Virus record (IMG/VR): IMGVR_UViG_3300006868_000112
Span: 1-23,813 of that record
DNA: 23,813 nt
Direction: 5' to 3' (one strand)
DNA from: a virus
In this document: positions 3,067 to 22,919 of the stretch, piece after piece
Layout of the letters: every line of letters starts with the position of its first letter
Position numbering within the stretch: position 1 is the stretch's first letter
Position numbers and translations under genes: made by a program
Notes under the pieces: generated by a model
Seen by the model: the letters and a program-made list of their open reading frames with translations, nothing else
Told to the model about the DNA's origin: nothing
Database searches by the model: none

Positions 3067-6000
3067 TTACTGTTCCTCTGCTGGTGTCATGGCATTAGGG
3101 CCAAAAGACGGTGCCTCACCTGCCACTACAGCGGATGCTGAATTGGTAAATGGCACCACGTATGGAAGCTGGCTCGCACCCATAGTTATATAACGCATGA
3201 GCTGCGTAGTCGAATACTCTGTCGGGTCGCCAGTCATAAGGCGCTTGACGCCTTGCATGCTGTCTAACAGCCCCGTTACGGCTTGCAGGGTAGGGGCCGT
3301 GGGAATGGCACCACGACTAAGCTGCGTGTCTTGCCCAGCGTTGCTCATGATTTGCAACATTGGTGCAACGAATGTCATAGGTGCGGCCATCGCTGGAATG
3401 TAGCTAATGCTCATCTGCGCGACACGTGCCGGGTGCAAACCTTTTTCAAACCGCTCGCGTCGTTTGGTTTCACTCATTCCTGCCGTGCTGACGTACAGCT
3501 TGCTTAGGTACATCATCATGCTCGCCCCCAAGCCCCCGTACAGAATCAGCCGCGCTTTCTTTGCGTTGCCACTGCGCACCCTGGCGTTCAACGGTACAGC
3601 TTGCTTCTCAAACGCGTTCAAGCTGTACGTCATAAACTGCGTAAAGTATTTCATCAGGCCACCTTGCAGCATCGCCGGGGACATACCCATGCTGCTTTCT
3701 TGCACAAGCCTGTGCGCAAACTCGTTGAGTCGTAGCTCAAGGTCGTCGGCTAGCATGGACGCTTCGTCGCTCACGTCGTGCCAAAGGTCAGTCCGCAGGC
3801 TGCGCACGGTGCCTGTGTCTGCGTCTACCTCTGCGAACCGCTTGATAAGATCGTACGCTAAGTCCCGGCGTGGTCCGTCGGGCAAGTTCATAATGACGCC
3901 AAGGTCATATTCATCAAACGGATTGTTCTTGCCGTTAGCGCTTTTGAACAGGTTAGCAACGCTGCGCCTATACGTTAACGCACGCATTAACATAGTGATA
4001 GGCTTCAATAAGTTCAGCGCCATGCTTAACTCTCGCGCCCTACCTGTCATGTTGTAAAACTGCGCAGCTTTTGTCTGACCTTCCGCACGCATGTTTAGAT
4101 CAGGGCGGTCAAAGCGGAACAGCGAGTTAGTGGGGTCAATCCCAGCCACGAACACCATGTCTTCCGCTGTCTGCGTGTCAAACTTTCCAGTTTTGTTTGC
4201 GCGTTTAAGATCGCTAAGCACACTGAAGTTTTCGTTCCAGAACTTCGCATTGCCTAACCCTACCGTTGAAGCTACCTGCACAAACTCAGGAATCTGCGCG
4301 AACATCACTTGAGGCAGGAACACTGCGGTCGTCAGGTTGCGTGCACCGTTGGTGATTTGTCCGAATGCAGAATCGAAGCCTGCTACTTGGCTGCGCGTTA
4401 CGGGGTCAACGTCAATCATTTCGTCGTACGCCCGGTTCGGGTTGCGCCCTGCCGCAGTCATCAAGTCAAAGATGCCGCGATTAACACGATGCTTCTCACG
4501 CTGGATTGTCTTAGCGCTCGTCCCGCGCTTCTTTGCCTTTTCCTTATAGTCCTCAAACTGCTTGCGCATTCGCCGCACTTTGGTTGCTACGGTGTCGTCT
4601 TCTTTTAGAATGCCGCGCTTGCCCAGCACGCTTAGTCTGTTCGCACCCCAACGGGCAGAGTTAGCCAGGTTCAGCGCGTCACTTACGATCAGGTCTTCAA
4701 AGCTAATCCGGTCGCCTTTGCTGATACGACTGCTGCCCAGCGTTTCGTCTAAGCTTGCTGACAATCGCGTCACGTCGGCGTTGCTAAACCCAAGCTCACG
4801 CAATGACATACTGAACGTGTCGTCTAGCCCTAGCTTGCTGTTTAAAAAGTCTGCGTCTGGCCGTTTGCTGTTTGGACGCTGCTTGCGCACTAGAATGTTT
4901 GTGACAAGCTCTGCCATTTCTGCGGCTTCAACGTCGGTTGCGTCAGACTTGAACTCCCGCAGCAACGCCTCAACAATTTCTTCCTCTAGGTCGTCGCTCG
5001 TGAAGTAATCAATCCGACCTTCCCGTGCGTTGCGTACCCGGTCCACAACGTTGTCGTAGTATGCGCGCCCAAGGCGGTTCATGTACGTCTGAGCCTTGGC
5101 CGTAATCTCTGCGTCGTAGTTCTTGAGAATAAAGTCTGTCTTGAACTCAATCGTTGCGCCATCCCCGAAATCGTCAATGCGCACGCCATCAAGTTTAACG
5201 TCACCCAGCGCAACCTTGCGCGCCAAGTATTCTTTGGGCAGTCCTTGCTTTGCCACGATTGCGCCTGTGATAAGCTTGTGCATCTTTTCGCGCTCAAGCA
5301 GGTCATCAAGTAGCATTATGTTGCGATGACTGAACGCCCGTTTGTTGTACGTTTGGCCGTTTAGTTCGGTGAGAATGTCACTTTGGTAGATGTTACTCTC
5401 CACCATCTGTGCGCGTTTTTTCTCGTAGAATTTGTCTAAGTGGTCAGCCGCCTCGTCAATCTGTGGCTTAAGCTTGGCAAACACTTCGGGTTCCATCCGC
5501 AAGTCATCGGCTGTGATTTCTTTGCCCAAGTTACGGAATCGACGCGTGCGCTCAATTGCTACGAGGAAGTCACCTTCGTCTATCCCTGTGTCCGTCAGCG
5601 CGTCCGCCATGCTTTGCCGCAGTTGCTCAAGGCCCAGCGCGTCTTCAGCGTCAAACAAGCGCACCTCTGCTTCAAACTCAGGTGCACCCGCACGAATAAC
5701 TCCGTCGTCAGTTTCTTGCAGAATGCCACCAAGCAACCGGGCAGTCTCACTGACCTCACCAAGCTTGCTCATCTGCGCGCTGCGCCGGGGGCTAAGCCAC
5801 TCGTAAACGTTGCCTAAGAAAGTGTCTTGGCCGAAGACGCGGACAGGTTGCGTTGCCGCATCCCCTGCGCTTGCGCTGTTAACAAGGCGCACAACAGAAC
5901 GCTCAGTTGAGTTAAGCGCTGCGACTGCCTCAAGGTTGCGCAGTTGCTTGCTCGTAGACGCTGCAATCATGCTGCTACCCACGCCGCCAAACAACCCGGT

Positions 6001-6624
6001 TGCCACAATGCTTGCCACGTCCATTTCGTTCTGACCGCTCAGCGCACTGCGACCTGGCTGCATGCCAAGCTCTACAGCAGCTTCAGCACCAAAGCCTGCC
6101 GTAAATGGCTTCCGCCCTATAAAAGACGTAGAGTTTGCAAGCCGCGCACCTTTCGACAATGCGCCTACCGTGCCACCTGTTGCAACGGCTACGCCCAAGT
6201 CAACGGGGTCCAGCAAGCCAGCGACAAGTGAAGCACCAACGCCAACCCCTTCCATTGTCTTGTCGCGCTTCGCAATGTACGCGCCTTGGTCCCGCACGTC
6301 TTGCTCAAACGTGGCGTACTTTCCGTTAGCAAGGAACCGAGTATCCCTGCGCAACTCATTGAATTGCGTTGGGCTAAGATTAAGGTCTCTCGCTACGCTT
6401 GCCGCTAAGTTGTACAGTTCGTCTGTTTCTTCGGCTGGCTGTGCGAAAGGGTTAGCGCGTTGGGCAATCAAGCGCTGCGTGAAGTTTTGCTCGCGTGCGT
6501 GATTAAGGTTCAAGGCGCGCACGACGTTTGCCGTGGTGCCGTACTGCATAGACCTAGCAACCCCACCTACGAAACCCTGTTCGTTGGTCTGGTCTTTGTA
6601 CCCGTACTGACTAACCCACGTCAT
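3067..6624 (-). CDS. gp16-like internal virion (ejection channel) protein
   Basis: This 1185-residue protein follows the gp15-like gene and ends one base before the tail fibre gene, as T7 gp16 (1318) does before gp17. Apolar Gly/Ala-rich segments at about 126-160 and 205-225, and C-terminal hydrophobic stretches at 1026-1045 and 1070-1090, fit a protein that crosses the inner membrane to form the DNA translocation channel. The middle is charged and helical. The N terminus M-T-W-V-S-Q-Y-G-Y shows no transglycosylase motif (no E-S-x-x-x-P type active site), unlike T7 gp16, whose N-terminal domain is a murein transglycosylase. The start ATG overlaps the previous stop (ATGA). Role is inferred mainly from order, length and membrane segments. 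Confidence 0.82.
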   Translation of the reverse strand: MTWVSQYGYKDQTNEQGFVGGVARSMQYGTTANVVRALNLNHAREQNFTQRLIAQRANPFAQPAEETDELYNLAASVARDLNLSPTQFNELRRDTRFLANGKYATFEQDVRDQGAYIAKRDKTMEGVGVGASLVAGLLDPVDLGVAVATGGTVGALSKGARLANSTSFIGRKPFTAGFGAEAAVELGMQPGRSALSGQNEMDVASIVATGLFGGVGSSMIAASTSKQLRNLEAVAALNSTERSVVRLVNSASAGDAATQPVRVFGQDTFLGNVYEWLSPRRSAQMSKLGEVSETARLLGGILQETDDGVIRAGAPEFEAEVRLFDAEDALGLEQLRQSMADALTDTGIDEGDFLVAIERTRRFRNLGKEITADDLRMEPEVFAKLKPQIDEAADHLDKFYEKKRAQMVESNIYQSDILTELNGQTYNKRAFSHRNIMLLDDLLEREKMHKLITGAIVAKQGLPKEYLARKVALGDVKLDGVRIDDFGDGATIEFKTDFILKNYDAEITAKAQTYMNRLGRAYYDNVVDRVRNAREGRIDYFTSDDLEEEIVEALLREFKSDATDVEAAEMAELVTNILVRKQRPNSKRPDADFLNSKLGLDDTFSMSLRELGFSNADVTRLSASLDETLGSSRISKGDRISFEDLIVSDALNLANSARWGANRLSVLGKRGILKEDDTVATKVRRMRKQFEDYKEKAKKRGTSAKTIQREKHRVNRGIFDLMTAAGRNPNRAYDEMIDVDPVTRSQVAGFDSAFGQITNGARNLTTAVFLPQVMFAQIPEFVQVASTVGLGNAKFWNENFSVLSDLKRANKTGKFDTQTAEDMVFVAGIDPTNSLFRFDRPDLNMRAEGQTKAAQFYNMTGRARELSMALNLLKPITMLMRALTYRRSVANLFKSANGKNNPFDEYDLGVIMNLPDGPRRDLAYDLIKRFAEVDADTGTVRSLRTDLWHDVSDEASMLADDLELRLNEFAHRLVQESSMGMSPAMLQGGLMKYFTQFMTYSLNAFEKQAVPLNARVRSGNAKKARLILYGGLGASMMMYLSKLYVSTAGMSETKRRERFEKGLHPARVAQMSISYIPAMAAPMTFVAPMLQIMSNAGQDTQLSRGAIPTAPTLQAVTGLLDSMQGVKRLMTGDPTEYSTTQLMRYITMGASQLPYVVPFTNSASAVVAGEAPSFGPNAMTPAEEQ

Positions 6625-9600
6625 TGGCTAACCCTTTGCGCTTGCGTGTTGTGAATTGCTTCGTCAATCAACGCACGCGACACAGCAAACGCTGCGGTCT
6701 CACTGCCCATTGCGTACTGATACGAAAAGTCGATTGTGCTAATTTCGCCTGTTGCTTCGTCAGGCAAGGCGTCAAGCAGGACTTGTTCGGGAACCGTGTA
6801 GGCAATCATGGACCCGGTGTCGATTGAGCTTTCCATACCAATCCGCCGCGTCTGTGTAAGCTCACTGTTGAGAATGTTAGAACCCGTCAAGCTTACGACG
6901 CTTTGCGCGCCCAGCATCGGCTGCAAGTCTTTTGGGTCTAAGTCCACAACAAAGTCACGCCCGTCCGCTAGCTGCACGGTAGCCTGCAACCGCTGCGTAT
7001 AGTTTTTATCAAAGCTCTTAGTGTTGTTCAACAAGTACGCAGGCGCGCTGGTTCCGTCTTGTCCCATGATGTTGACGCGTGTGCTGCCAGCGTCCTCTAA
7101 GTCAAAGTGTGCAAACCCTTGAATGCCGGGTACACCTTCCTTGCCTTCAACTAAAACGTTGCGTGCAATGAAGCTTTTAGGCGACTCAGCGATGTAGGCA
7201 GACTGATTGCCAATAACTAGGCTGTCCAAAATGCCATTCATGGCGTCTTTGCGCCCTGCTTCCTCAAGTGGTCCGCGAAAGTTCTCAACAAAAACGCCAG
7301 CCACAATGCGCGCCACGTTCTTTTCGTAAACATCTTGCGTTCCAAAAACGCGTTCGTTGATGCCTGATAGCGCGTCACCGACTGGTGAAAGCATGTTGCG
7401 GTCTTTGTTAACCCACCGGGCAGATACATCAGTTAACAAGTTGTCGAACAACACGCCGCTTGAGTCTGCGATTGTAATGCTCTTGGTTTTAAGCGTCTTG
7501 TTCATCGCGTCGTTTGTTAGCTTAGCGATTTTCTGCTGTGTTTCCGCGCTGCGCCCAAACAGCCCAAGCTCTGCGGCTTGCGTAACAACTTCCAGCCGCA
7601 CTACGTCGGCAAGCTGCGGCTCTACGCCACCAATCTGCAAGTCCGTGATGAACTGCAAAGTATCTTGCCCAATGTTGTTCTGCACTATGGAGTCGATTGC
7701 GAGCGCGGCGTCTGCAAAAGTACCACCCTCTTGCTGTACCCGCATCGCGGCAAGTGCAGCCAACGGGTCGCCTTGGAACGTCTCAACAATGTCAACGTTT
7801 GCGCTCAGCGCAGACTCTACGATCAGGTTAAACTGGCCCATGTCCATGCGCCCAAGTTCATCCGGTTCGATGTTAAGCTGATCTAGCAGTTTCGCACCGT
7901 ATCCCGGCATGCCCCACGATTGCGCTTGCTCAAATACACCACGCAACATTCCGGCGTCTTCTTTTGCTAACGCTGCGTTTGCTTGCTCATTTAAAAGCTG
8001 ATTGCGTGCTGCTTTTTCCGCAGACAATTCGGTTTTAAAGACAGTGCGAAGCTTCCCGTCTTCTCCCTGTCTTAACACTTCGTACGGCGCTAGTGGTCCG
8101 TTGGCTGTCACAGCTTGTGTAAAACGTTCCGCGTTAAAAGTTTCCTTAAGTGCTTTTTCTTGATAGTCGCCTACAGTTTCTAGAACGTCTGCTGCATCTT
8201 GGAACAAGGTGTTACCCCCGTTGCCCGTCTGAATTTTGCCAAACAAATCGGTAACGGCTTTGCTACTCATTATTTCTTGCAAAGTGCCTAGCTTCTGCGT
8301 GAAATCATTTAGCTGAGCGCCATTAAGCTCAGTAGATTCTGAAAGCGCGCTGTAAGACTCCAAGTCGCCAAGCAAATCTAATGTAAACTTTTTGATGTCG
8401 ATTGGCCGTTGCCGCAACAGTGCCTCAGCTTTTGTCTCACCTCGTTTGTCTGCGCTTTGCACCTCCACTTGCACTGCGTTGATAGCGTAATTGTCACTAT
8501 TTTCTCTTGCAGTAGCTCTAAGCTTTTCTGTGAACGTACCCCACGCTTTCAGTTTTGCAAGATCACCGTTTTCTAAATGCGTTTCAATCTCTTCAATGCT
8601 TAAACCGCTTTCGCTAGATATTAACGCTTTGAACACTTCCACTGGCTCGCCGTGTCTAGCAATCAGTTGGTTCATTTCGCTGCCGCTTAAGTCTTCGATA
8701 AACGGAATGATTTTAGTTTGTTCAGCGTACTCGTAGTTAAGCTTGATTTCGTTTTTGGCGTCTTGGAACGCTGCGTTGAGCATGCTGGACTGCACGTTGT
8801 CGAACGCTTTGTAAAACCGTTGGTAGGCGCGCTGCACGTGGGGCAGGTTACGGAACGACTGTTCGTCAATCTTGCCGCCCGTGTTGCTTTCGATGATGTT
8901 GCGATACATGTTCAACTCAGCGCGAAGTTGTGCGCCTGCGGCTTGCACTGCGTCCACCGCTGCGCTTGCTGAACCGTCTTCGGCAAACCACTCAGCGTAG
9001 TCAGCGCCTAGCTGTGTCTGAAGCGCTGCGGCAACCGCGTCATCTGTGAAGCCAACGGTCATAGCGTCTCCGCTCTCGCCGCCGTTCACTGCCACGCCGT
9101 AACCTTCCAGCGCTTGCACGGCTACGTTTCCGCTAGGGTCAGAACCGTCCATTGCCAACGGGCGCGCACCGTCGTCTGCGGCAATGTTAATCTTGTTCCC
9201 TGGTAGCCCCTCTTGCCGCATTGCTTGCAGGTTAGGGATAAGTGTATCCAACGCAAACTGCCGTTCCGTGATGATGTTACCATCTACGTTCATCACTGCA
9301 CCTTCGCGCCCTTCCTCGTGCGGAGCCATGATTACCGCCCCGTCGATTGCACCGAGCGTGCGCATCAGCAGGTTTGCGTACCGCTTTTGGAACTCGGGCA
9401 GCATAAAGATTTGCACGGCCATCGGGTCTTCGGCAAAGAATGGCTCAGTGTGAATCGTGTTGCTAAGCCCACGGTTGCCCCCGCCGCTTACTTGTATGCC
9501 GTTGCCTTGGCTCAGCGTGTAACCTTCATACCCAAATTCTTGGAAAAGTTTCTGCACACCGTCCACGTACGCCTTGGCTTGCTTTGTCTGCTGCGGCGTA

Positions 9601-10946
9601 GCGCTGGGGGGAATGACAACAAGCGCGCCACTTGCTCCCGGCGTGCTGTTGAAGTCCAAGCTAATCCGCATTTGGTTAGGCTTAAGGTCGTACGCCTCAC
9701 GACTACCTGCAAAAATCTCAGCGGACCCTGCGGTATTGCGAACAAGCTTGCCTGTTTTAAAAGCCGCTTGTCCTTCGCTGAACAGTTGACCCCAAGGCAT
9801 GTTGGGCAAGGCTTCAAAGATTTTGTCTGTGTTGTACCCACTGATTTCAGCGCGCATAGTGCCTTGCACAAATGCAGCTTTTGCCGCCGTGTCAGACAAC
9901 ACTGCGTCTGCATCCAAGCCAAAGTCGCGCATGATGCTTAGACGGTCCCTGTAAGCTTGCAGTGTGGCTTGGCGGCTTTCTTCGTCGTCAAACTTTGTGT
10001 CTTCAACCGGGCCAGTAAGATTAAGCCCAAACCACTGGCGCACTGCTTGGTCAACGGAGCCTTCGCTGACGCCACGATACTGCGCCCAGAAGCCCATATA
10101 GCGCACGCCATCTTCCATGCTTTTGAACGCAGGCACGGCACGTTGCACTTTGTCCAGGTTCAGCAGGTCCGTGCCGTTAGACACAATGTCCGCACCAAAC
10201 ACGTCGTAGGCTTTTTGCTTCACGCTTTCGGGCGCGTCGGCAATCCAGTTGATAAAGCCAGGGTTATTAAGCTCAAGGTTCGCTGGGGTGTTGACGCCAA
10301 CTTGCTCACCCAGCGCAGCGTATTGCGTACTGCCTGGTGTTGCCGCTGGGGTAACGGTGTAGTTCACACCGCTAGTGCGTCCTGCTTGCTCGATTGCACT
10401 GTAAAGGTCAGGCGCAATGTCCGTGTTGTGCACGGTAACGCCGCCTTGCGACATATCGTTGCTGACCGTTGGGAACGCACCCAAGCCAGCCATCACGCTT
10501 TCGCCCAAGGCAAACGCAGCGTTGTTGCCTTGTGCGTTCATAATGCTGAATTCTTCAGCAGCGCTAAGCTGGTCGCGAATGTCCGCGTCTTGCTCACGCA
10601 GAACGGCTAGCTGCAAGCGCTCCCTGTCCGCCTGCAAAGCGAATGCGTTACGCTGTTCTTGCAGGTCCAAGCGCTTCTGTTGAATCTGCAAGTCTTTCTG
10701 GCGCTGTTCGCCACGCAGTTGCTCGCGCTGGTTCTCCATAATCGCGCCACTCAGCTGATTGAACCGCTGGCCCAGCGCTCCGTAGCTATCCGCTAACGAA
10801 CCTGTTGCGCGCCGCAGTTGCCCGTATGCCTGCGCAAGCTCACCCAATGCGCTGGCTTCACGGTCGTCAAGCAATGGGCGGAAGTAGCTATCACGCCGTG
10901 CAACGGGTGCTGCACCAGGATTGATTGGAGAGATAAATTCAACCAT
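6621..10946 (-). CDS. gp15-like internal virion protein with candidate cell-wall-hydrolase domains
   Basis: At 1441 residues this is about twice T7 gp15 (747), yet it occupies the gp15 position between gp14- and gp16-like genes. Residues 60-120 are a Gln/Arg-rich coiled coil. Residues 224-340 resemble a lysozyme-like muralytic domain of phage structural proteins: L-E-L-N-N-P-G-F-I-N-W, then F-K-S-M-E-D-G-V-R-Y-M at 274 and further W-F-G-L. Residues 425-585 form a second compact domain with S-N-T-I-H-T-E-P-F-F (H499, E501) and A-P-H-E-E-G-R-E-G-A (H543), spaced as metal or catalytic residues might be. The remaining 850 residues are helical and structural. It would be ejected and could open the wall during DNA entry, a task T7 assigns to gp16. 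Ejection-core role is confident; the enzyme calls are tentative. It overlaps the gp16-like start by four bases. Confidence 0.8.
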   Translation of the reverse strand: MVEFISPINPGAAPVARRDSYFRPLLDDREASALGELAQAYGQLRRATGSLADSYGALGQRFNQLSGAIMENQREQLRGEQRQKDLQIQQKRLDLQEQRNAFALQADRERLQLAVLREQDADIRDQLSAAEEFSIMNAQGNNAAFALGESVMAGLGAFPTVSNDMSQGGVTVHNTDIAPDLYSAIEQAGRTSGVNYTVTPAATPGSTQYAALGEQVGVNTPANLELNNPGFINWIADAPESVKQKAYDVFGADIVSNGTDLLNLDKVQRAVPAFKSMEDGVRYMGFWAQYRGVSEGSVDQAVRQWFGLNLTGPVEDTKFDDEESRQATLQAYRDRLSIMRDFGLDADAVLSDTAAKAAFVQGTMRAEISGYNTDKIFEALPNMPWGQLFSEGQAAFKTGKLVRNTAGSAEIFAGSREAYDLKPNQMRISLDFNSTPGASGALVVIPPSATPQQTKQAKAYVDGVQKLFQEFGYEGYTLSQGNGIQVSGGGNRGLSNTIHTEPFFAEDPMAVQIFMLPEFQKRYANLLMRTLGAIDGAVIMAPHEEGREGAVMNVDGNIITERQFALDTLIPNLQAMRQEGLPGNKINIAADDGARPLAMDGSDPSGNVAVQALEGYGVAVNGGESGDAMTVGFTDDAVAAALQTQLGADYAEWFAEDGSASAAVDAVQAAGAQLRAELNMYRNIIESNTGGKIDEQSFRNLPHVQRAYQRFYKAFDNVQSSMLNAAFQDAKNEIKLNYEYAEQTKIIPFIEDLSGSEMNQLIARHGEPVEVFKALISSESGLSIEEIETHLENGDLAKLKAWGTFTEKLRATARENSDNYAINAVQVEVQSADKRGETKAEALLRQRPIDIKKFTLDLLGDLESYSALSESTELNGAQLNDFTQKLGTLQEIMSSKAVTDLFGKIQTGNGGNTLFQDAADVLETVGDYQEKALKETFNAERFTQAVTANGPLAPYEVLRQGEDGKLRTVFKTELSAEKAARNQLLNEQANAALAKEDAGMLRGVFEQAQSWGMPGYGAKLLDQLNIEPDELGRMDMGQFNLIVESALSANVDIVETFQGDPLAALAAMRVQQEGGTFADAALAIDSIVQNNIGQDTLQFITDLQIGGVEPQLADVVRLEVVTQAAELGLFGRSAETQQKIAKLTNDAMNKTLKTKSITIADSSGVLFDNLLTDVSARWVNKDRNMLSPVGDALSGINERVFGTQDVYEKNVARIVAGVFVENFRGPLEEAGRKDAMNGILDSLVIGNQSAYIAESPKSFIARNVLVEGKEGVPGIQGFAHFDLEDAGSTRVNIMGQDGTSAPAYLLNNTKSFDKNYTQRLQATVQLADGRDFVVDLDPKDLQPMLGAQSVVSLTGSNILNSELTQTRRIGMESSIDTGSMIAYTVPEQVLLDALPDEATGEISTIDFSYQYAMGSETAAFAVSRALIDEAIHNTQAQRVSQ

Positions 10947-10948
10947 TG

Positions 10949-11746
10949 TTACCGCCCGTATGGATTGAAGTTAAGAAGGTTGCGCGCTGCCACGTTTGTC
11001 ATGGCCGTACCCAGCGCGGCGTTTGCTTGATTGTACTGCATCTGGTTGTTCAAGCCCTGCATGGTCATGGCGCTACTTTGCTGCATAGTGCTGCGCTGCG
11101 ACTGCAAGCTTTGGATGTTTGTAAACGCGTTGGTGAACCCGGTTACTGCGCCGATTGCCGTACCAAATGCCTGTAGCTGCGTCTGTTGCGCGCCGATGTA
11201 AGCGGCTTGTCTGCGCACCTCAATCGCTTGGATTTGTGCTGGCGACATACGCGGCTCCAAGACGCTAGCAATACGCGCAGTGGTCTCGTCACGCGCTTGC
11301 TCTTTAAGTGCTTGGCCGTAGCGCCGCATAGCCTTTGCCCGGTTCGCCAGACGGTTTTCGTTGCGTCCGCTCTCTGCGTTGATTGCAGCAATTGTGTCTT
11401 GCACAGAAACACCTGACCTACCCAGCGTGGCGTTTGTTGCTTGCGTTGTGCCGCGCACGTTACGTGCTGCAACTAACTGGTCAAACGCTTGGCGCTGTAC
11501 CTCTTTGACGTTCTCTACTGTTTGTTCGTCAATCTGTTCTTGCTGTAGCGCGAAGCTATCAAGAGCCAGTTTCTTGTTGGTTTCGTATTGCCGTTGCTGC
11601 GCAGCGTATTGCTCAAGCAGCATTTGACGCTCAACGCTTGCTTGCTTGTCAGCCAGCGCACGCTGTTGCCCAGCGAGACGGGCTTGCTGCCCAGCCATCG
11701 CCAGGTTCATGACCGGGCCGATAAAACTAGCTACTGCGGTGCACAT
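10949..11746 (-). CDS. T7 gp14-like internal virion (ejection core) protein
   Basis: This 265-residue protein is expected in the internal core stacked on the portal and ejected first, with gp14 forming the outer-membrane pore in T7. The start M-C-T-A-V-A-S-F-I-G matches the M-C-x-A type start of T7 gp14. It is Gln- and Ala-rich and helical, with a long coiled-coil-like region at about 20-95 and a central D-T-I-A-A-I-N-A-E-S-G segment. The frame extends upstream to 11830, but GAGGAT about 9 bases before ATG 11746 and the conserved start favour the shorter form. Residues 185-230 are Ala/Gly-rich and apolar, a possible membrane-insertion stretch. The gp15-like gene follows after 2 bases. Confidence 0.88.
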   Translation of the reverse strand: MCTAVASFIGPVMNLAMAGQQARLAGQQRALADKQASVERQMLLEQYAAQQRQYETNKKLALDSFALQQEQIDEQTVENVKEVQRQAFDQLVAARNVRGTTQATNATLGRSGVSVQDTIAAINAESGRNENRLANRAKAMRRYGQALKEQARDETTARIASVLEPRMSPAQIQAIEVRRQAAYIGAQQTQLQAFGTAIGAVTGFTNAFTNIQSLQSQRSTMQQSSAMTMQGLNNQMQYNQANAALGTAMTNVAARNLLNFNPYGR

Positions 11747-12218
11747 GCCGTAAATCCTCGCGGTGCAGGTAGAAGGCCTTGAAGTAAGCGCCGTTCCACT
11801 TTTGAATCTTAGGGTGCCACTGTGCGCCAAGCCACGTCAGCCAACGTTCGTGAAGCTGATTGCTTGTGTGCACTAGGTTGACGAAGGTAAGCCAATCGCC
11901 GTGTTCGTACATTTGCTCAAGCACGTCACCACTGCGGCGCAGAAATGTTGTGGCGTGGTCGTAAACCCAATCGGTTGTCACCATCCATGCAACGCCAACT
12001 TCGTCTTGGTCTGTACGCACCACGCCAGCCAAAGCTACAGGCGTACCGTCCGCTTCCCCGGCCAGCAAAATGCTGCTGTTTTCTGCGCTTGTTTCAACTT
12101 GCTCGACTGGTGGCACGTCTTTGTTCACGTAACGCGCCTCGACAAGATCAGGTTCCCGCAAGTTGTTTGCGACGTGGTGAACGTGGTGCTGCTTAGCGGG
12201 TACAATCTCAAACGTCAT
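11727..12218 (-). CDS. T7 gp13-like internal virion protein (DUF2833)
   Basis: This 163-residue protein sits between tail tube B and the gp14-like gene, the T7 gp13 position; gp13 is needed to make infective virions. The N-terminal half (M-T-F-E-I-V-P-A-K) and the central G-V-A-W-M-V-T-T-D segment with Y-E-H-G-D-W-L-T-F-V-N-L-V-H-T-S-N and W-L-G-A-Q-W-H further on resemble a GNAT-like acyltransferase fold, which I link to DUF2833. No clear acetyl-CoA-binding loop (R/Q-x-x-G-x-G/A) is visible, so enzymatic activity is unlikely. The ATG at 12218 overlaps the previous stop by four bases; an upstream in-frame start at 12257 would lie inside tail tube B and is not favoured. The last 20 bases overlap the gp14-like start. 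Confidence 0.8.
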   Translation of the reverse strand: MTFEIVPAKQHHVHHVANNLREPDLVEARYVNKDVPPVEQVETSAENSSILLAGEADGTPVALAGVVRTDQDEVGVAWMVTTDWVYDHATTFLRRSGDVLEQMYEHGDWLTFVNLVHTSNQLHERWLTWLGAQWHPKIQKWNGAYFKAFYLHREDLRHVHRSS

Positions 12219-15200
12219 CGCACACTCACAGCCTTCGGGCTTACAAACCCTTGCCACTCAAGTGACGTTAACGTGCTTGGCAAGACCGTACTGTTCTTAA
12301 AGACAATCTTGCACTTTTGGTTCTGCGCGAACACAGGGAACCGGAAGCTTTCAGACGCGAACCGTCGCGTGCCTAACGAAAAGTCTGCAACACCCGGTTT
12401 AAAAGCCTCGTAGTCGTACTTACGCGCCTGCCTACCGTCCGCTGTAACCTCTACGTCAAACGAGCTAGTGTCATCACAGGTTACGGTGCAGTACCGAAGT
12501 TGTAAGCGTGCGTCGGTTTTTCCAACGTTAGACTCACCTGCTTTATAGAAGATTGGCGATTGCTCGTAGGTCAGCGTGTACGCCCTGCCTATCACAAAGT
12601 CTGGCGTAACTGCTGTCGTGATGTTGTTCAGCACCCTGTCTTCCGGCGTAAGGAACACACCGTCCAAACGCCCTATAACAATGACCTTTGTGTTGTCTGT
12701 GTTCACAACGATTGCGTTTATCGCGTCTGCATTTGCCTGCGTCGGGCTTGCCAAGAACGTTCCCGTCGCTGCGGCTAGAGCTGCCTGACTGCTTGCGCTG
12801 TCAATCTCAATGTTCAACGCCGCAACCAACGGAGTGCCGACGCCGTATGCTGCTGCGTCCGTAAAGATTGTGCGAATGTCTGTCGCTGTTGTTTTGTACG
12901 GAAGCTCAACAACACTAAAGTCCAAGCCATCAGGAAGCGGGATAGCAAGCAAATTGCTGCTGCTTAGTGAACTAGTGCTGTACGCAAACGCGTTTTGATT
13001 AGCTTGACTTACCCCGTCGGCGCTGTCCTGTCTGTCACCTTCAACGTTAATACATTGCGCACGCGTCACTCGAAAATCAGCAAGAACTGGGAACGACTTA
13101 GGATTCACCTCTGTGATTTCATTGAGCGGGATGCGCACCATATGCGTCCTCTCTTGGTACGCGCCAAAGTTCGTCCCGGTGCTGTTGTCTAGCTCAAGCG
13201 TCTTGACGTAATCCGGCACGCGTACAGCACAGATAAGATGCAGGTAGTCTTCAAGTACCTCAACGTTAACAATGCGCGTGTCGTCTTCAAGTAACCACTT
13301 ACTCCACGCACTCTGCAAACGTTGGTTTGTTGCGTCGTAATAGTTGTACACGTACAAACAATTCGTATTCGTATGCGATAGCGCAATAAGAATGTTTTTC
13401 TTTGCGCTGTACGCCAGCTTGTGCACGTCGCTAGGAATGTACTTAGGGACTTGCGTAGTGACCTCGTTACTTTCCAAAATGTCCGTATCAATGTCAGCGC
13501 GGAACTCTCGCACTGTCGTACGTTCAACGTCGTTTACTGCTGCAAATACGCTTTTGCCGACGCGCTGTGGCCGCGCAAGCAGTGACGTAGCGTGAGCGCC
13601 TGTCTGCTGGATAAGGCTTGTTGCTGGGGTTAGTGCGCCACTAGACACCAAGCGATATTGAGCGCGCTCGCTAAACAGAAGCAACGTGTTTGCAAACGGG
13701 GCGGCGTAGTTAAGCTTTGCCACGTCGCCCGTCGAAGCGTTTAGATCAATCCGGTCGTCATCTAGTAACTGCACAACCGTTGAGCGAAAAAAGTTTGTAG
13801 TCTGTCCGTAGTCAGTCCCGCTCAAAATTATATTTTCTCCCGCGAGAAAACCAAGGCGACCGCCGTGAACAAAAACGTCATTGATCGTAGAGCCAACAAA
13901 CGAAGGTACTGCGTTGCTGTCGCTATCGCCAGAAATACGCGGGGCATACTGGTGGCGGGTCAACGTGAAATATGGCGTACCGTCCTCTTCAAACAGTCGC
14001 TGGATTTTATGCGGAAGGGTACCCTCATCCAAAATGTACGGTGTCTGATAGGTCTCCACGTACTTTTCTTGATTGTAATCGGCAAGAACGTAGTACCCAC
14101 TGTCACCAATGTCACCCCCCACAAGCGTTACAGCTCCCGGTGCCGCTGTTCCTGAGCCGGGACCACCTGTGCTAAGGGCGGCTAGGTCTTGGAATGTGCC
14201 GACTGACGGAAAGTTGTTACCTGTGTTTACAACTGTGTGAGTCAGAGTAGCGACTGACCAAGGCTGCACATCAGGGAAGACGTTGGGGCCAAGCCAATCG
14301 CTCGCAGAATGCTCTCCTGCGACAACAAAGATAATATCGTTTAGCAGCGTTTCTTCAGCAGTGGTCAGCCCTGACCCACTAGCAATTCCAGTGTTGCTAA
14401 ATGCACTTCCAGCTATTGAGTGTACGCTTAACCCACCCCCAGGCGAAAGGTTCCCAAAATCAATGTCAGGATTAGCATGAGGCCGGATAGCATCGCCAGC
14501 ATAACTGTGGAGCGTAGGGTGGTCGTTTACGCGCAAAAGTCGATACGTTGCACCGTTGTCGTCGGATATTTCTAGCTTACCCGTTGTTGCGTTAATGTTT
14601 AAATCATAGGTCAACGTGCGCCCGTTTACTGTTGGCCTGCTTGAAGACGGCCCATAAGCGCCAGCGGTGCGCGACTTAATCGTATAATCAATGTATGAAT
14701 TTTGTTGGTGATCGACATACGTGGTTGAAAAGAATGGCCCTGCAAGCAAGTCATTTGGCGACAAACTGTATGTACCTGCGGACGTAATACTTCTTTGCAG
14801 CATTTGCGCAAGAAGTTGTGGTGCGTTTGTGTATGACCCCACAGTTGGAATAATGAAGTAAGTGTATTGGTTGACGTTAGCTGCCGCACCTGTATCGGGT
14901 CGAGTTGCATCCGCGTTAGCGCGGTCAGTGAACGTCACGGAAAGCGAGGTAAAAAAGCTGCTTAACGACGTTGTATTACTAGAGACAGCACCGATTGCAA
15001 TATTACGATTGTCAACTTGAAACCCCCACTGTTGGCCGCTGCTTTGGTTTAGGACTGAATTACTTATCTGAATGCGGAAGACCGGCCCGCCTAGCGTACT
15101 ACGCTGCGCCGTGTAGTTTGGGCTAGAGCTACCGTCATCCCCACCGCCACCGCCGCGTTCCGTGTCGTAAGATAGTTGCGGATAAGTGGCAAAATGGTGG

Positions 15201-15661
15201 GCTTCGAAGTTACGGTTCTCACCGCCAGAAACAGTCACGTTCCGGTTGACCACAAACGTCGTGTCAGCCACGGTCGCGAACCGTAGGCTTTGAGCATAGT
15301 CAGTCGTTCCGCTAGTCAGGTAGTCGGTTGAGGCGCTATCGTCCACTTCGACCCGCAACGCTTGCCCGGTGTCAGCATCGAAGGCACGCAGCCCGTTACT
15401 GTCTACGGTTAGCGCGTAGTGTTCCGTAGCGTCTCGGTCAATCCAGTGCACCGCAGCCTTATCGTCTAGCACCAAGTCACTTGTCGTACCGTACGGGTGC
15501 ATTTCGCCCAGCCACTCAGCGGCTTGGCGTTTCTGCATGCCCGTCACCGGACTAAGCATCGCGTTCTCGCACGCTTCCGCTGTGTTGCTGTACCGCAAGT
15601 TGTCTGCCTGCTGCGAGACACCGCCAGTTAGATTTGGGATTGTGTCTGAGATAAGCGGCAC
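12215..15661 (-). CDS. Tail tubular protein B (nozzle), T7 gp12-like, enlarged
   Basis: This 1148-residue protein builds the tail nozzle, the DNA exit channel. The N terminus L-T-G-G-V-S-Q-Q-A-D-N-L-R-Y (11-24), F-V-V-N-R-N-V at about 136-142, and P-S-F-V-G-S-T-I-N-D-V-F ... R-L-G-F-L-A-G-E-N-I-I-L-S at 585-613 align closely with T7 gp12. T7 gp12 is about 794 residues; most of the extra length lies between the second and third landmarks (about residues 165-580). That segment begins with a glycine-aspartate-serine linker (G-G-G-G-G-D-D-G-S-S-S) and is rich in Ser, Thr, Asn and Gly. The start is GTG at 15661 with GGGAG 8 bases upstream. The stop overlaps the next gene by four bases (ATGA). Core identity is certain; the insert has no function I recognise. 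Confidence 0.92.
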   Translation of the reverse strand: MPLISDTIPNLTGGVSQQADNLRYSNTAEACENAMLSPVTGMQKRQAAEWLGEMHPYGTTSDLVLDDKAAVHWIDRDATEHYALTVDSNGLRAFDADTGQALRVEVDDSASTDYLTSGTTDYAQSLRFATVADTTFVVNRNVTVSGGENRNFEAHHFATYPQLSYDTERGGGGGDDGSSSPNYTAQRSTLGGPVFRIQISNSVLNQSSGQQWGFQVDNRNIAIGAVSSNTTSLSSFFTSLSVTFTDRANADATRPDTGAAANVNQYTYFIIPTVGSYTNAPQLLAQMLQRSITSAGTYSLSPNDLLAGPFFSTTYVDHQQNSYIDYTIKSRTAGAYGPSSSRPTVNGRTLTYDLNINATTGKLEISDDNGATYRLLRVNDHPTLHSYAGDAIRPHANPDIDFGNLSPGGGLSVHSIAGSAFSNTGIASGSGLTTAEETLLNDIIFVVAGEHSASDWLGPNVFPDVQPWSVATLTHTVVNTGNNFPSVGTFQDLAALSTGGPGSGTAAPGAVTLVGGDIGDSGYYVLADYNQEKYVETYQTPYILDEGTLPHKIQRLFEEDGTPYFTLTRHQYAPRISGDSDSNAVPSFVGSTINDVFVHGGRLGFLAGENIILSGTDYGQTTNFFRSTVVQLLDDDRIDLNASTGDVAKLNYAAPFANTLLLFSERAQYRLVSSGALTPATSLIQQTGAHATSLLARPQRVGKSVFAAVNDVERTTVREFRADIDTDILESNEVTTQVPKYIPSDVHKLAYSAKKNILIALSHTNTNCLYVYNYYDATNQRLQSAWSKWLLEDDTRIVNVEVLEDYLHLICAVRVPDYVKTLELDNSTGTNFGAYQERTHMVRIPLNEITEVNPKSFPVLADFRVTRAQCINVEGDRQDSADGVSQANQNAFAYSTSSLSSSNLLAIPLPDGLDFSVVELPYKTTATDIRTIFTDAAAYGVGTPLVAALNIEIDSASSQAALAAATGTFLASPTQANADAINAIVVNTDNTKVIVIGRLDGVFLTPEDRVLNNITTAVTPDFVIGRAYTLTYEQSPIFYKAGESNVGKTDARLQLRYCTVTCDDTSSFDVEVTADGRQARKYDYEAFKPGVADFSLGTRRFASESFRFPVFAQNQKCKIVFKNSTVLPSTLTSLEWQGFVSPKAVSVR

Positions 15662-17767: not shown

Positions 17768-18514
17768 TTAACGCTTGCCTTTTCGCCAATCGTCGTATCG
17801 CACCCACACTAAATACATGGAAATAAGCGCCAACGCAACTAATGCGAATGTCGTGTTGTCTTTAATAAACGCTGCGATTTCATTAGCGGGACCGATTGCA
17901 GGCGCAAGCGCAGTGGTTCCAGACACAATTGTTGCGACGGTTGCAGCCTGTACTGTGCGGCTTTGCGCTACGTTTTTGCGAACCTCTTTCCACGGGGACA
18001 GAAACAAGTTGCGTTCTGCCATCCTCCGTTTTTCCAAGCCTCGTAGCTTTTCACCACCCGCGTAAACCCAGCGCTCAAACTCATCCGCAGCTTTTGCGCG
18101 TAGTCCACTGTTGAGCTTACGCAAGAGTGTGCTGTCACGAAATGCGCCGATGCCAACGTTGAAGGTGAAGCTAACAAGCGCGTCAAATTCGTTCTGGTTG
18201 AGCTTAACGCGCACGGCTTCACGCACGGCTTGCTCATACCCAATGATATGCTCGCGGAACATGTTCCACGTGGCGTCCTCAGAGTACAGCACGCCTTCCT
18301 TGAGATCAGGAACATCGTAGGTCGTGATGCCCAAGCCTACAGTCAGCACGTTCGGCTGCGCTAGGGTGTCCATGTAGACACGACGGTACTTAATCGGCAC
18401 TTCATCGTACCCACCCGGATAAGGCGTCGTGCCATCACTAAGTTTAATAGACGTGGCCGCTTCATAGTACGCAATCAGCGCAAGCCCACGGTCACTGAGT
18501 CGAAGTTGTGACAT
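17768..18514 (-). CDS. GH24 lysozyme (endolysin) with C-terminal membrane segment
   Basis: This 248-residue protein is a muramidase that would cleave peptidoglycan at lysis. Residues 5-175 match phage GH24 lysozymes: catalytic E18 in Y-Y-E-A, Y-M-D (D49) and L-T-V-G-L-G-I-T (T64) correspond to the E-D-T triad, and L-N-Q-N-E-F-D-A-L-V-S-F-T-F-N-V-G at 105-121, S-T-L-L-R-K-L-N and R-G-L-E-K-R-R-M-A-E complete the fold. About 30 residues separate E18 and D49, where the family usually has about eight, and the common G-H-T is G-I-T. Residues 187-216 are small and apolar; residues 222-238 form a clear transmembrane helix ending in a basic tail (R-K-G-K-R). No signal peptide is present. No separate holin gene is seen, so the membrane tail may anchor the enzyme or contribute to lysis timing. 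It starts one base into the scaffold stop. Confidence 0.88.
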   Translation of the reverse strand: MSQLRLSDRGLALIAYYEAATSIKLSDGTTPYPGGYDEVPIKYRRVYMDTLAQPNVLTVGLGITTYDVPDLKEGVLYSEDATWNMFREHIIGYEQAVREAVRVKLNQNEFDALVSFTFNVGIGAFRDSTLLRKLNSGLRAKAADEFERWVYAGGEKLRGLEKRRMAERNLFLSPWKEVRKNVAQSRTVQAATVATIVSGTTALAPAIGPANEIAAFIKDNTTFALVALALISMYLVWVRYDDWRKGKR

Positions 18515-21085: not shown

Positions 21086-21271
21086 CTAACCTTTCATGTT
21101 TTTCGCTAGCTGTTGGTCGTAAAGGTGACGCAAGTGCGACTGCACTTTTACTGCGCCAACAGATTGCCAGACCTCGCGTTCGCTCCATTCGATGCCTGGG
21201 GCTTTGTCAGGAAAAACTTCCGCGAGGTAATCCAATAATTCTTCGGTGATAGCAGGGGGTTTGTTAGGCAC
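21086..21271 (-). CDS. Small conserved-looking phage protein of unknown function, 61 residues
   Basis: The reading frame extends upstream into RNR, but the likely start is GTG at 21271. It overlaps the RNR stop (GTGCCTAA) and has a strong Shine-Dalgarno (AAGGGAGGT) 7 bases upstream. The product begins V/M-P-N-K-P-P-A-I-T and contains L-L-D-Y-L-A-E-V-F-P-D-K followed by W-S-E-R-E-V-W-Q-S-V-G. It is soluble and predicted mostly helical by eye, with no membrane segment or cysteines. I associate short proteins with an F-P-D... S-E-R-E-V/I-W pattern with podoviruses near the head genes, but I know of no function. Its position between nucleotide metabolism and the gp7.3-like gene does not decide whether it is structural. 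Confidence 0.75.
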   Translation of the reverse strand: MPNKPPAITEELLDYLAEVFPDKAPGIEWSEREVWQSVGAVKVQSHLRHLYDQQLAKNMKG

Positions 21272-22919
21272 CGCAGACACCTCCCTTGCCACCGATCTCG
21301 CAAACATCATGGGTCTCAATAAACGTGATGCCTTGCTGATTCGACGCTTCGCTGTAAGGCACAGCAGTCAACGGCTGACCGCCACGTGAACCGTCCGCGT
21401 AGAACGTCAAGCCTCGCAGCTTGTCCGCGTAACGCGCAACCAAGTCCACGTAATCGTCAAGCGTGTCTTCGTTGTTAAGCTCATGGCCCCACGCTGGCAG
21501 GTTCACCGTGCTACTGATCGACTGGTCCACGTATTTCTGCACGTCCGCTTGGAATTTTAGCCTGCGTTCTGGTTCTGCTGCCAAGTCCAGCGCACTTTCA
21601 ATCTTGTCAGGGTCCACGCCGTAACGATCAATCACCTCTTGGGCAGCGCTATCGACAACGTACTGGTATTGCCACTGATTGTCTGGACCCAGCCAGCGGC
21701 GCTTGTACGCAACAGCAAAGAGCGGCTCGATGCCCGTGGTCGTGCCAGCGAGGATGCCAATGCTCCCGGTCGGGGCAATAGCGCGCACGCCCTTTGGCCG
21801 CGAGACACCAAGAGTTTTGGAGAACGCGGTCGCTTCCGCATCCGATGCGGTCTCGTATACATCTAGCCACGAATGCAATTCATCGTTCACTTCGTAGTTA
21901 TACCCACGCGCCAGCAACCATTCGTGTAGGCCCATGATTCCAAGACCCAGCCTACGGTTTAACTCGCGAGTGCGGTAACATTCTTCATACGGCAAAGCGC
22001 TCGCCAAAGTACCACACAGCAAGAACTTTGTCACAAGGCGGGTTACGTCCTCTAGTTCTTGCAAGTTTTCGATGCGGCTGAAGTTGAGTGACGCTAGGTT
22101 GCACACGTCGTGCGGCGTGTCGATGTGGCTTACTACTTCTGTGCACGCATTACGAAGCGTTTCGCCCTCATGCTCAAACATGTTGAAGCTGAATCCAGGT
22201 TCGCTCGTCCGCAACGCTTGCTCGACGTTCTTGCGGAATACACGACCAGGTTCACCCGTCTTGTAATACTCTTGAACCCATTCAGTGTCGTAGTTGACGG
22301 ACACGTTCATCATGTCTAACGGGGCGGGAAAATTAAAGTCTTCAGCCTTTACGTCTGCGATTGTTTTCCCCGTCCCAGCAATAGGCATGTCGTGCCAGTT
22401 CTTTGCCGCCAAGAAATCGTCTATGTCGCCGTGTTTCCAGTTCAAGCTGCCGTACATGGCGCTGCGACGGTCTCCACCTTGGCGCACCTGTCGGCCAATC
22501 TCATTAATCATTAGCGCCTTGCTTACTGCGCCTGACGCTACGCCACCACTGCGCTTCAGCGGGGAACCCTTTGGTCGGTACGCGGAGAAATCAATACCGA
22601 TGCCGCCACCCATCGTCAGGCAAAGCTCTGACCAGCGGGACAGATTAGCCCAATCCTGACGGGTGTCTTCCGTTGCTGCTAGCAAAAAACAGTTATTGTA
22701 TGCCTTCCATTCCTTGTTCGCGTTCGCCAAGTAGCGTCCACCAGCCAACCATTTGAACTCGGTCATGTACTGCACAAGCTGGTCTTTGTCGTCCGCAGGC
22801 ATAAGGTCGCCACACACCGCGTCCACTAAAGCGCGGCACAGCTTGGGCCATGTCTCTGCCCCTTCGTGAGCGTATTTCTGGTTGAAAATAGTGGTAGCGA
22901 ATTCATTACGAAACATCAT
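21264..22919 (-). CDS. nrdJ: Class II (adenosylcobalamin-dependent) ribonucleotide reductase
   Basis: This 551-residue enzyme reduces ribonucleotides to deoxyribonucleotides for phage DNA synthesis. Visible RNR features are N-N-C (C77, first redox cysteine), the radical-site motif N-A-C-T-E (N257, C259, E261), C-N-L-A-S-L-N (C273, second redox cysteine), P-T-G-S-I-G at 383, G-I-E-P at 396, Q-S-I-S-S-T-V-N-L-P near 466 and a C-terminal cysteine pair at C540 and C549. No separate radical-generating small subunit is adjacent, and the sequence style and length match phage class II enzymes rather than class I NrdA (about 760 residues). There is no room for an N-terminal ATP cone. The enzyme would need B12 from the host. 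The C-terminal pair is spaced C-x8-C, wider than the C-x4-C of the Lactobacillus enzyme. Two adjacent ATG codons are possible starts; GGGG lies 4 and 7 bases upstream of them. Confidence 0.9.
   Translation of the reverse strand: MMFRNEFATTIFNQKYAHEGAETWPKLCRALVDAVCGDLMPADDKDQLVQYMTEFKWLAGGRYLANANKEWKAYNNCFLLAATEDTRQDWANLSRWSELCLTMGGGIGIDFSAYRPKGSPLKRSGGVASGAVSKALMINEIGRQVRQGGDRRSAMYGSLNWKHGDIDDFLAAKNWHDMPIAGTGKTIADVKAEDFNFPAPLDMMNVSVNYDTEWVQEYYKTGEPGRVFRKNVEQALRTSEPGFSFNMFEHEGETLRNACTEVVSHIDTPHDVCNLASLNFSRIENLQELEDVTRLVTKFLLCGTLASALPYEECYRTRELNRRLGLGIMGLHEWLLARGYNYEVNDELHSWLDVYETASDAEATAFSKTLGVSRPKGVRAIAPTGSIGILAGTTTGIEPLFAVAYKRRWLGPDNQWQYQYVVDSAAQEVIDRYGVDPDKIESALDLAAEPERRLKFQADVQKYVDQSISSTVNLPAWGHELNNEDTLDDYVDLVARYADKLRGLTFYADGSRGGQPLTAVPYSEASNQQGITFIETHDVCEIGGKGGVCGA
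21279..21287 (-). promoter_or_regulatory. Strong Shine-Dalgarno inside RNR for the 61-residue gene
   Basis: The sense strand reads AAGGGAGGT, a near-perfect anti-16S match, 7 bases before GTG at 21271. It lies within the last codons of RNR and so decides the start in favour of GTG over the upstream ATG at 21319. Confidence 0.65.

Follow-up and report, generated by a model that had tools for sequence, protein, structure and literature searches.

What does a compact domain with paired histidine and glutamate motifs do inside an internal virion protein that stands in the position of T7 gp15? The question is raised by a marine T7-like phage, the IMG/VR virus record IMGVR_UViG_3300006868_000112, of which positions 1 to 23,813 were analysed (the window, 23,813 nucleotides). 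In a 1441-residue open reading frame (ORF) of this window the initial annotation had described a self-contained alpha/beta domain with the motifs N496-T-I-H499-T-E501-P-F-F504 and P542-H543-E-E-G-R-E-G-A550, and had suggested a metal site such as that of a zinc amidase or peptidase. The ORF and both motifs were found to be correctly located. Profile comparisons and predicted structures make it probable that the domain is a circularly permuted Amidase_3 amidase module grafted into the gp15-position ejection protein, where it would open the peptidoglycan at entry. The permutation had not been seen in the initial annotation.

6621-10946, minus strand: gp15-position internal virion protein of 1441 amino acids, the domain carrier (ORF and gene position)
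9213-9734, minus strand: predicted circularly permuted Amidase_3 domain, residues ~405-578 (AlphaFold2 model, homologue alignment, and hhalign against the doubled canonical Amidase_3 profile)

The distribution of the domain is that of a mobile module. When the whole protein was searched against 50,697 phage records, the single match was in Roseobacter phage CRP-2 and covered residues 407-543 only; outside the amidase domain the protein has no tblastn match in these records. The CRP-2 carrier, gp48 (MK613344, annotated as hypothetical), is a separate 307-residue protein with the domain as its C-terminal half, and three further member sequences searched against the phage records revealed no carrier besides CRP-2. 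A DNA pattern for NT.H.EPFF was scanned over 2.9 million viral contigs and gave 27 loci, all homologous across the ~170-residue domain. The domain is known from at least 19 distinct phage sequences; the 19 used for the conservation counts are 26-44% identical to the window domain. In two T7-like relatives, L020 and L029, it is fused within the gp15-position protein, and elsewhere it sits in otherwise unrelated structural-module proteins of other phages. In bacterial and archaeal genome contigs, two pattern scans gave 10 and 91 pattern matches with no confirmed homologue. That other proteins carry the region as a module of its own, and that AlphaFold2 models residues 405-600 as a unit of this kind, both support the notion of a self-contained alpha/beta domain, but the limits first given to it, residues 425-585 (9192-9674), had to be moved: it starts near 405-410, with the first strand that carries invariant R416, and ends with the helix 561-578.

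Homology of the domain to Amidase_3 was indicated by both profile comparison and Foldseek, and the class first suggested, a zinc amidase, was correct. Domain members match phrog_435, “endolysin” (best E value 1.3e-5; 3.5e-5 for L024), and L024 also matches Pfam Amidase_3 weakly (E 0.06) in the register expected from a permutation, the direct Pfam matches being below the curated cut-off. When H499 was freed in the search pattern, one new true homologue was obtained, the canonical-order amidase L052. This 173-residue protein matches Pfam PF01520 above the cut-off and phrog_435 (endolysin) with E 1.8e-12, and has MHFNAF at the SIHANA place of Amidase_3 and NTVLCEPFF at the NTIHxEPFF place of the domain. 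The canonical profile was made from L052 and its relatives in cultured phages (12 members). Compared with it, the domain profile gave two non-sequential matches, in which the first two thirds correspond to the second half of the template (query 33-128 to template 74-169, 55 bits) and the C-terminal part to its first 40 positions (query 140-174 to template 6-40, 21 bits). With the canonical profile doubled head to tail, hhalign joined the two into an unbroken match (67 bits; E 3e-9 when only one comparison is counted), and did so with four versions of the domain alignment. The observed score was reached in 0 of 400 cases when the C-terminal part was shuffled, and shuffling of the whole query gave a maximum of 21. 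The continuous match and the shuffle control together give the signature of a permutation, and we therefore regard the domain as circularly permuted. Its order departs from the canonical linear one with an N-terminal GH.. motif, as the PH..GA and Glu unit comes after the VE.FF strand. A comparison of the domain profile with Protein Data Bank (PDB) sequences gave a kinesin match only, which was dismissed as chance.

The predicted structures are in line with this order. AlphaFold2 models were obtained for window residues 405-600 (predicted local distance difference test, pLDDT, 86.8; predicted template modelling score, pTM, 0.83) and for the independent member L017 (pLDDT 91.5, pTM 0.89). The canonical Amidase_3 order is beta1(GH..)-alpha1(E)-beta2-beta3(SIHANA)-beta4-alpha3-beta5(VE.FF)-alpha4, while the order here is beta2-beta3(SLDFN)-beta4-alpha3-beta5(NTIHxEPFF)-alpha4-beta1(PH..GA)-alpha1(E), and in both models the elements follow one another as predicted for a permuted Amidase_3. 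In Foldseek searches of the PDB, Amidase_3 enzymes were the best matches for the window domain and made up most of the top 8 for L017.

Amidase_3 enzymes hold zinc by the His of GHGG, a Glu of helix alpha1 and the His of SIHANA, and carry a catalytic Glu on a late strand; the residues in AmiP are His17, Glu32, His85 and Glu145 (PMC9929850). Alignment and conservation place the counterparts in the window domain as follows, canonical counts referring to the 12-member clade.

9699-9701, minus strand: R416, invariant (19/19), on the first strand (model strand 6-11); probably the counterpart on the Amidase_3 “TR” strand beta2
9645-9662, minus strand: S429-L-D431-F-N433-S, counterpart of SIHANA (Asp 18/19 and Asn 19/19; canonical His 12/12 and Asn 12/12)
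9435-9461, minus strand: N496-TIHTEPFF-504, counterpart of canonical (V/I)xVEPFF, with E501 at the catalytic Glu position (alignment, conservation)
9297-9323, minus strand: P542-H543-EEGREGA-550, counterpart of the canonical N-terminal GHS..PGA / GHGGxDPGA, with H543 at the zinc-ligand His position (alignment)
9213-9266, minus strand: E561 and helix 561-578 (model helix 157-174), counterpart of helix alpha1 with the zinc-ligand Glu (Glu 19/19, canonical 12/12)

All 19 sequences share R416, N433, G483, G493, N496, T497, H499, E501, P502, F503, F504, H543, G549 and E561, and H543, E561, E501 and N433 fall at positions that are also invariant in the canonical clade. The zinc His of GHGG/GHS corresponds to H543, the zinc Glu of helix alpha1 to E561 and the catalytic Glu of the last core strand to E501. 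The metal site first suggested, H499/E501 with H543/E544, was revised by the homologue alignment, which confirmed that H499, E501 and H543 are invariant and showed that E544 is not (Glu in 1/19). H543 stays as a predicted ligand, E501 falls at the position of the catalytic Glu and not at that of a ligand, and the P-H-E-E acids were rejected as metal ligands for want of conservation (E545 is Glu in 3/19), the conserved acid at the ligand position being E561. Invariant E561, N433 and R416 had been overlooked, and D431 and N433 map to the SIHANA motif. H499 and E501 were fixed in the search pattern and their invariance was re-tested with relaxed patterns: besides the recovery of L052, freeing E501 gave no new homologue, and so no variant at this position, among the viral contigs. 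H543 and E561 were never part of the selection pattern. Three relaxed-motif loci, L053, L054 and L055, were discarded as chance matches (stop codons).

At the SIHANA His position the domain has Asp in 18/19 and Gly in 1/19; the sole member with Gly is L014 (5892-6458, minus strand; AVGFN). Two residues before the catalytic Glu stands invariant H499, at a position held by Leu or Ile throughout the canonical clade; this His is a possible substitute for the third zinc ligand as judged from the alignment. In the Amidase_3 sheet the strand with SIHANA lies next to the one with the catalytic Glu, and it is plausible for this reason that the third ligand has moved from one strand to its neighbour. 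Zinc would then be held by H543, E561 and, we infer, either H499 or D431 in place of the SIHANA His, with E501 acting as general base/acid.

Several observations weigh against the assignment as a permuted amidase. The SIHANA zinc His, present in 12/12 canonical sequences, is lost, which makes the metal site non-canonical. The window protein alone gave no match in Pfam and PHROG scans. The permutation test is fragile with a broad Amidase_3 profile (AmiA/B/C and Gram-positive phage endolysins): the doubled-profile signal was lost once gappy columns were removed, and one control gave artefactual scores from shuffled gap columns. Because of this fragility we relied on the closer canonical clade found via L052. 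Finally, the Foldseek template modelling (TM) scores to Amidase_3 are ~0.3-0.4, and the best E value is 1.9e-3; a sequential aligner would be expected to score a permuted fold in this way, though such scores are no proof of one.

On the first of these points a different reading can be built, namely that the permuted Amidase_3 fold has lost its catalysis and contributes to the ejection tunnel as a structural part or by binding peptidoglycan, the zinc His being replaced by Asp or Gly in all 19 sequences. However, the other three active-site positions have stayed invariant among these divergent sequences, although the proteins that carry them are unrelated, and an additional His, likewise invariant, has arisen beside the catalytic Glu, whereas degenerate domains usually lose such residues. 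We therefore consider a dead fold unlikely.

The virion module around the domain lies on the minus strand in the T7-type order of head-tail connector (portal), scaffold, Phage_lysozyme gene, major capsid, tail tube, nozzle, gp14-position gene, 1441-residue ORF, gp16-like protein and T7-type tail fibre. Three of these genes are listed here.

10949-11830, minus strand: gp14-position gene (synteny)
3067-6624, minus strand: gp16-like internal virion protein of 1185 amino acids, without the N-terminal lytic transglycosylase part (phrog_342, Pfam, N-terminus read directly)
17768-18514, minus strand: Phage_lysozyme (PF00959) gene, candidate endolysin (Pfam E 3e-34)

The 1441-residue ORF is flanked by the gp14-position gene and the gp16-like gene (phrog_342), which is the place of gp15 in a virion module of T7 type. 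Its gp15 assignment is made from position only; PHROG and Pfam gave no sequence homology to T7 gp15. Assignment from size and synteny alone is frequent for gp15 homologues (PMC8954989). Near-identical full-length copies of the protein are L002 and L003, and L020 (39%) and L029 are homologues. The segment of residues ~205-405 (9732-10334, minus strand; ..NNPGFINW...VRQWFG...), which precedes the amidase domain, is variable in L020 and entirely missing in L029, and looks like another optional module. In the gp14-position gene, residue 1 of the L020 homologue aligns to residue 29 here (63% identity), and the true start is likely ~28 codons downstream of the listed TTG.

In T7 the transglycosylase is located in the N-terminus of gp16, and hydrolase domains can swap onto gp15 homologues, as in K1E/K1-5, where gp35 is a gp15-type protein with a peptidoglycan-hydrolase domain (PMC8954989). 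PhiM1 OEP is likewise a gp15-type protein with a lysozyme-like domain (PMC11440229). In the gp16-like protein of the window, the phrog_342 match starts only at profile position 294, no Pfam SLT was found, and direct reading of the N-terminus revealed no recognisable transglycosylase domain. We propose that, once ejection has brought the internal proteins into the periplasm, the domain would hydrolyse the bond between N-acetylmuramic acid (MurNAc) and L-Ala and would thereby open the peptidoglycan for the ejection channel, taking over the job of the N-terminal transglycosylase of T7 gp16 that is lacking here. Amidase activity, metal binding, bond specificity and a role at entry are thus all predicted properties, and a virion-borne amidase that opens peptidoglycan at entry is the most likely identity of the domain.

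An active amidase could also serve in host lysis late in infection, as an endolysin. Such a role would agree with the nearest canonical relatives, which are phage endolysins, and with the CRP-2 carrier, a standalone protein of unassigned role. It seems quite improbable, as the domain is fused inside the gp15-position virion protein in the window, L020 and L029, and as the separate Phage_lysozyme gene of the same window can be used for lysis. This gene lies between the scaffold and major capsid genes, which is unusual for a likely endolysin, and is conserved in L020 and L029.

Lower-ranked Foldseek matches to DODA/LigB dioxygenases and purine nucleoside phosphorylase raise the further thought of a metallo-enzyme that shares the broad fold class but has other chemistry (a peptidase or LigB/DODA-like) and a different target bond, and an altered ligand set could indeed alter specificity. 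These matches have TM-scores of 0.23-0.33 at root mean square deviations of ~8-12 Å, however, and the sequence profiles indicate Amidase_3 specifically, which leaves this reading very doubtful. That the motifs are coincidental and the region merely a structural part of the core protein, as the lack of a family match for the window sequence alone might suggest, is hardly credible for a module that is mobile and conserved, keeps residues of catalytic type without variation and shows significant homology in profile comparison, and is strongly disfavoured by the homologue alignment.

Returning to the permuted amidase, its likeness to Amidase_3 (PF01520; AmiA/B/C, CwlV, Rv3717, PlyPSA, AmiP) extends to the predicted fold class, the order of motif strands save for the permutation, the catalytic Glu, the first zinc His and the helix Glu. 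It differs by the beta1-alpha1 unit at the C-terminus, Asp for the SIHANA His, the extra invariant His and a reduced helix alpha2. The closest sequence relatives found are phrog_435 / endolysin amidases with (V/I)xVEPFF (L052, Shewanella phage X14, Vibrio phages), which share the words EPFF, NA/NS, RG(V/L/I)K and GA..E but are free-standing endolysins of canonical order with the canonical ligand set. CRP-2 gp48 has the same permuted domain (34% identity), but as a standalone protein of an HMO-2011-type podovirus, not fused to a gp15-type protein; a second hydrolase was sought at the corresponding place in CRP-1, with no Pfam match. T7 gp16 transglycosylase, K1E/K1-5 gp35 and PhiM1 OEP share the proposed task, in which an internal protein opens the wall locally after ejection, while their folds cleave glycan strands (lysozyme/transglycosylase) and are neither amidase nor permuted.

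Some further observations were made along the way. In Thiohalocapsa phage LS06-2018-MD04 (L064, OP947166.1 21445-22095), a canonical-order amidase lies directly upstream of a gene annotated “internal virion protein with endolysin domain”, which may be a parallel case without permutation. In Vibrio phage BUCT194 a canonical Amidase_3 endolysin (L063, MZ447858.1 70989-71519) bears the name alanyl-tRNA synthetase, an annotation that is apparently mistaken. In the window, the nozzle protein (12215-15661, minus strand, 1148 amino acids) is matched by Pfam Phage_nozzle (794 positions) in three stretches, which suggests large insertions, and a 551-residue ribonucleotide reductase-like protein (21264-22919, minus strand) matches Ribonuc_red_lgC and, weakly, the class II (B12-dependent) insertion domain.

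To the initial annotation, such a domain was not known from any characterised core protein of T7 type, and within the searches made this holds for an amidase. Other hydrolase domains are already known in gp15-type and other internal virion proteins; what would be new here is the amidase class, the permutation and the altered metal site. No paper on a circularly permuted Amidase_3 was found in the open literature searched (5.39 million papers), and neither the swapped order nor the altered metal site was found in the databases and literature searched. The fullest form of the proposal, a natural Amidase_3 permutation with a rebuilt zinc site (Asp for the SIHANA His, and a His gained on the neighbouring catalytic strand), which has spread as a module confined to phages and replaces the T7 gp16 transglycosylase in ejection proteins, we hold to be evenly balanced.

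Amidase_3 is among the main cell-wall amidase families of bacteria and phages. If the domain is active, this fold would tolerate its first zinc-binding unit at the other end of the chain and a zinc ligand on a neighbouring strand, and an ejection protein of T7 type would open the wall with an amidase, not a glycosidase. The motif NT.H.EPFF ... PH..(D)xGA ... E is currently missed by annotation pipelines, and the assignment gives a testable function to an unannotated family of marine-phage proteins, including that of cultured CRP-2.

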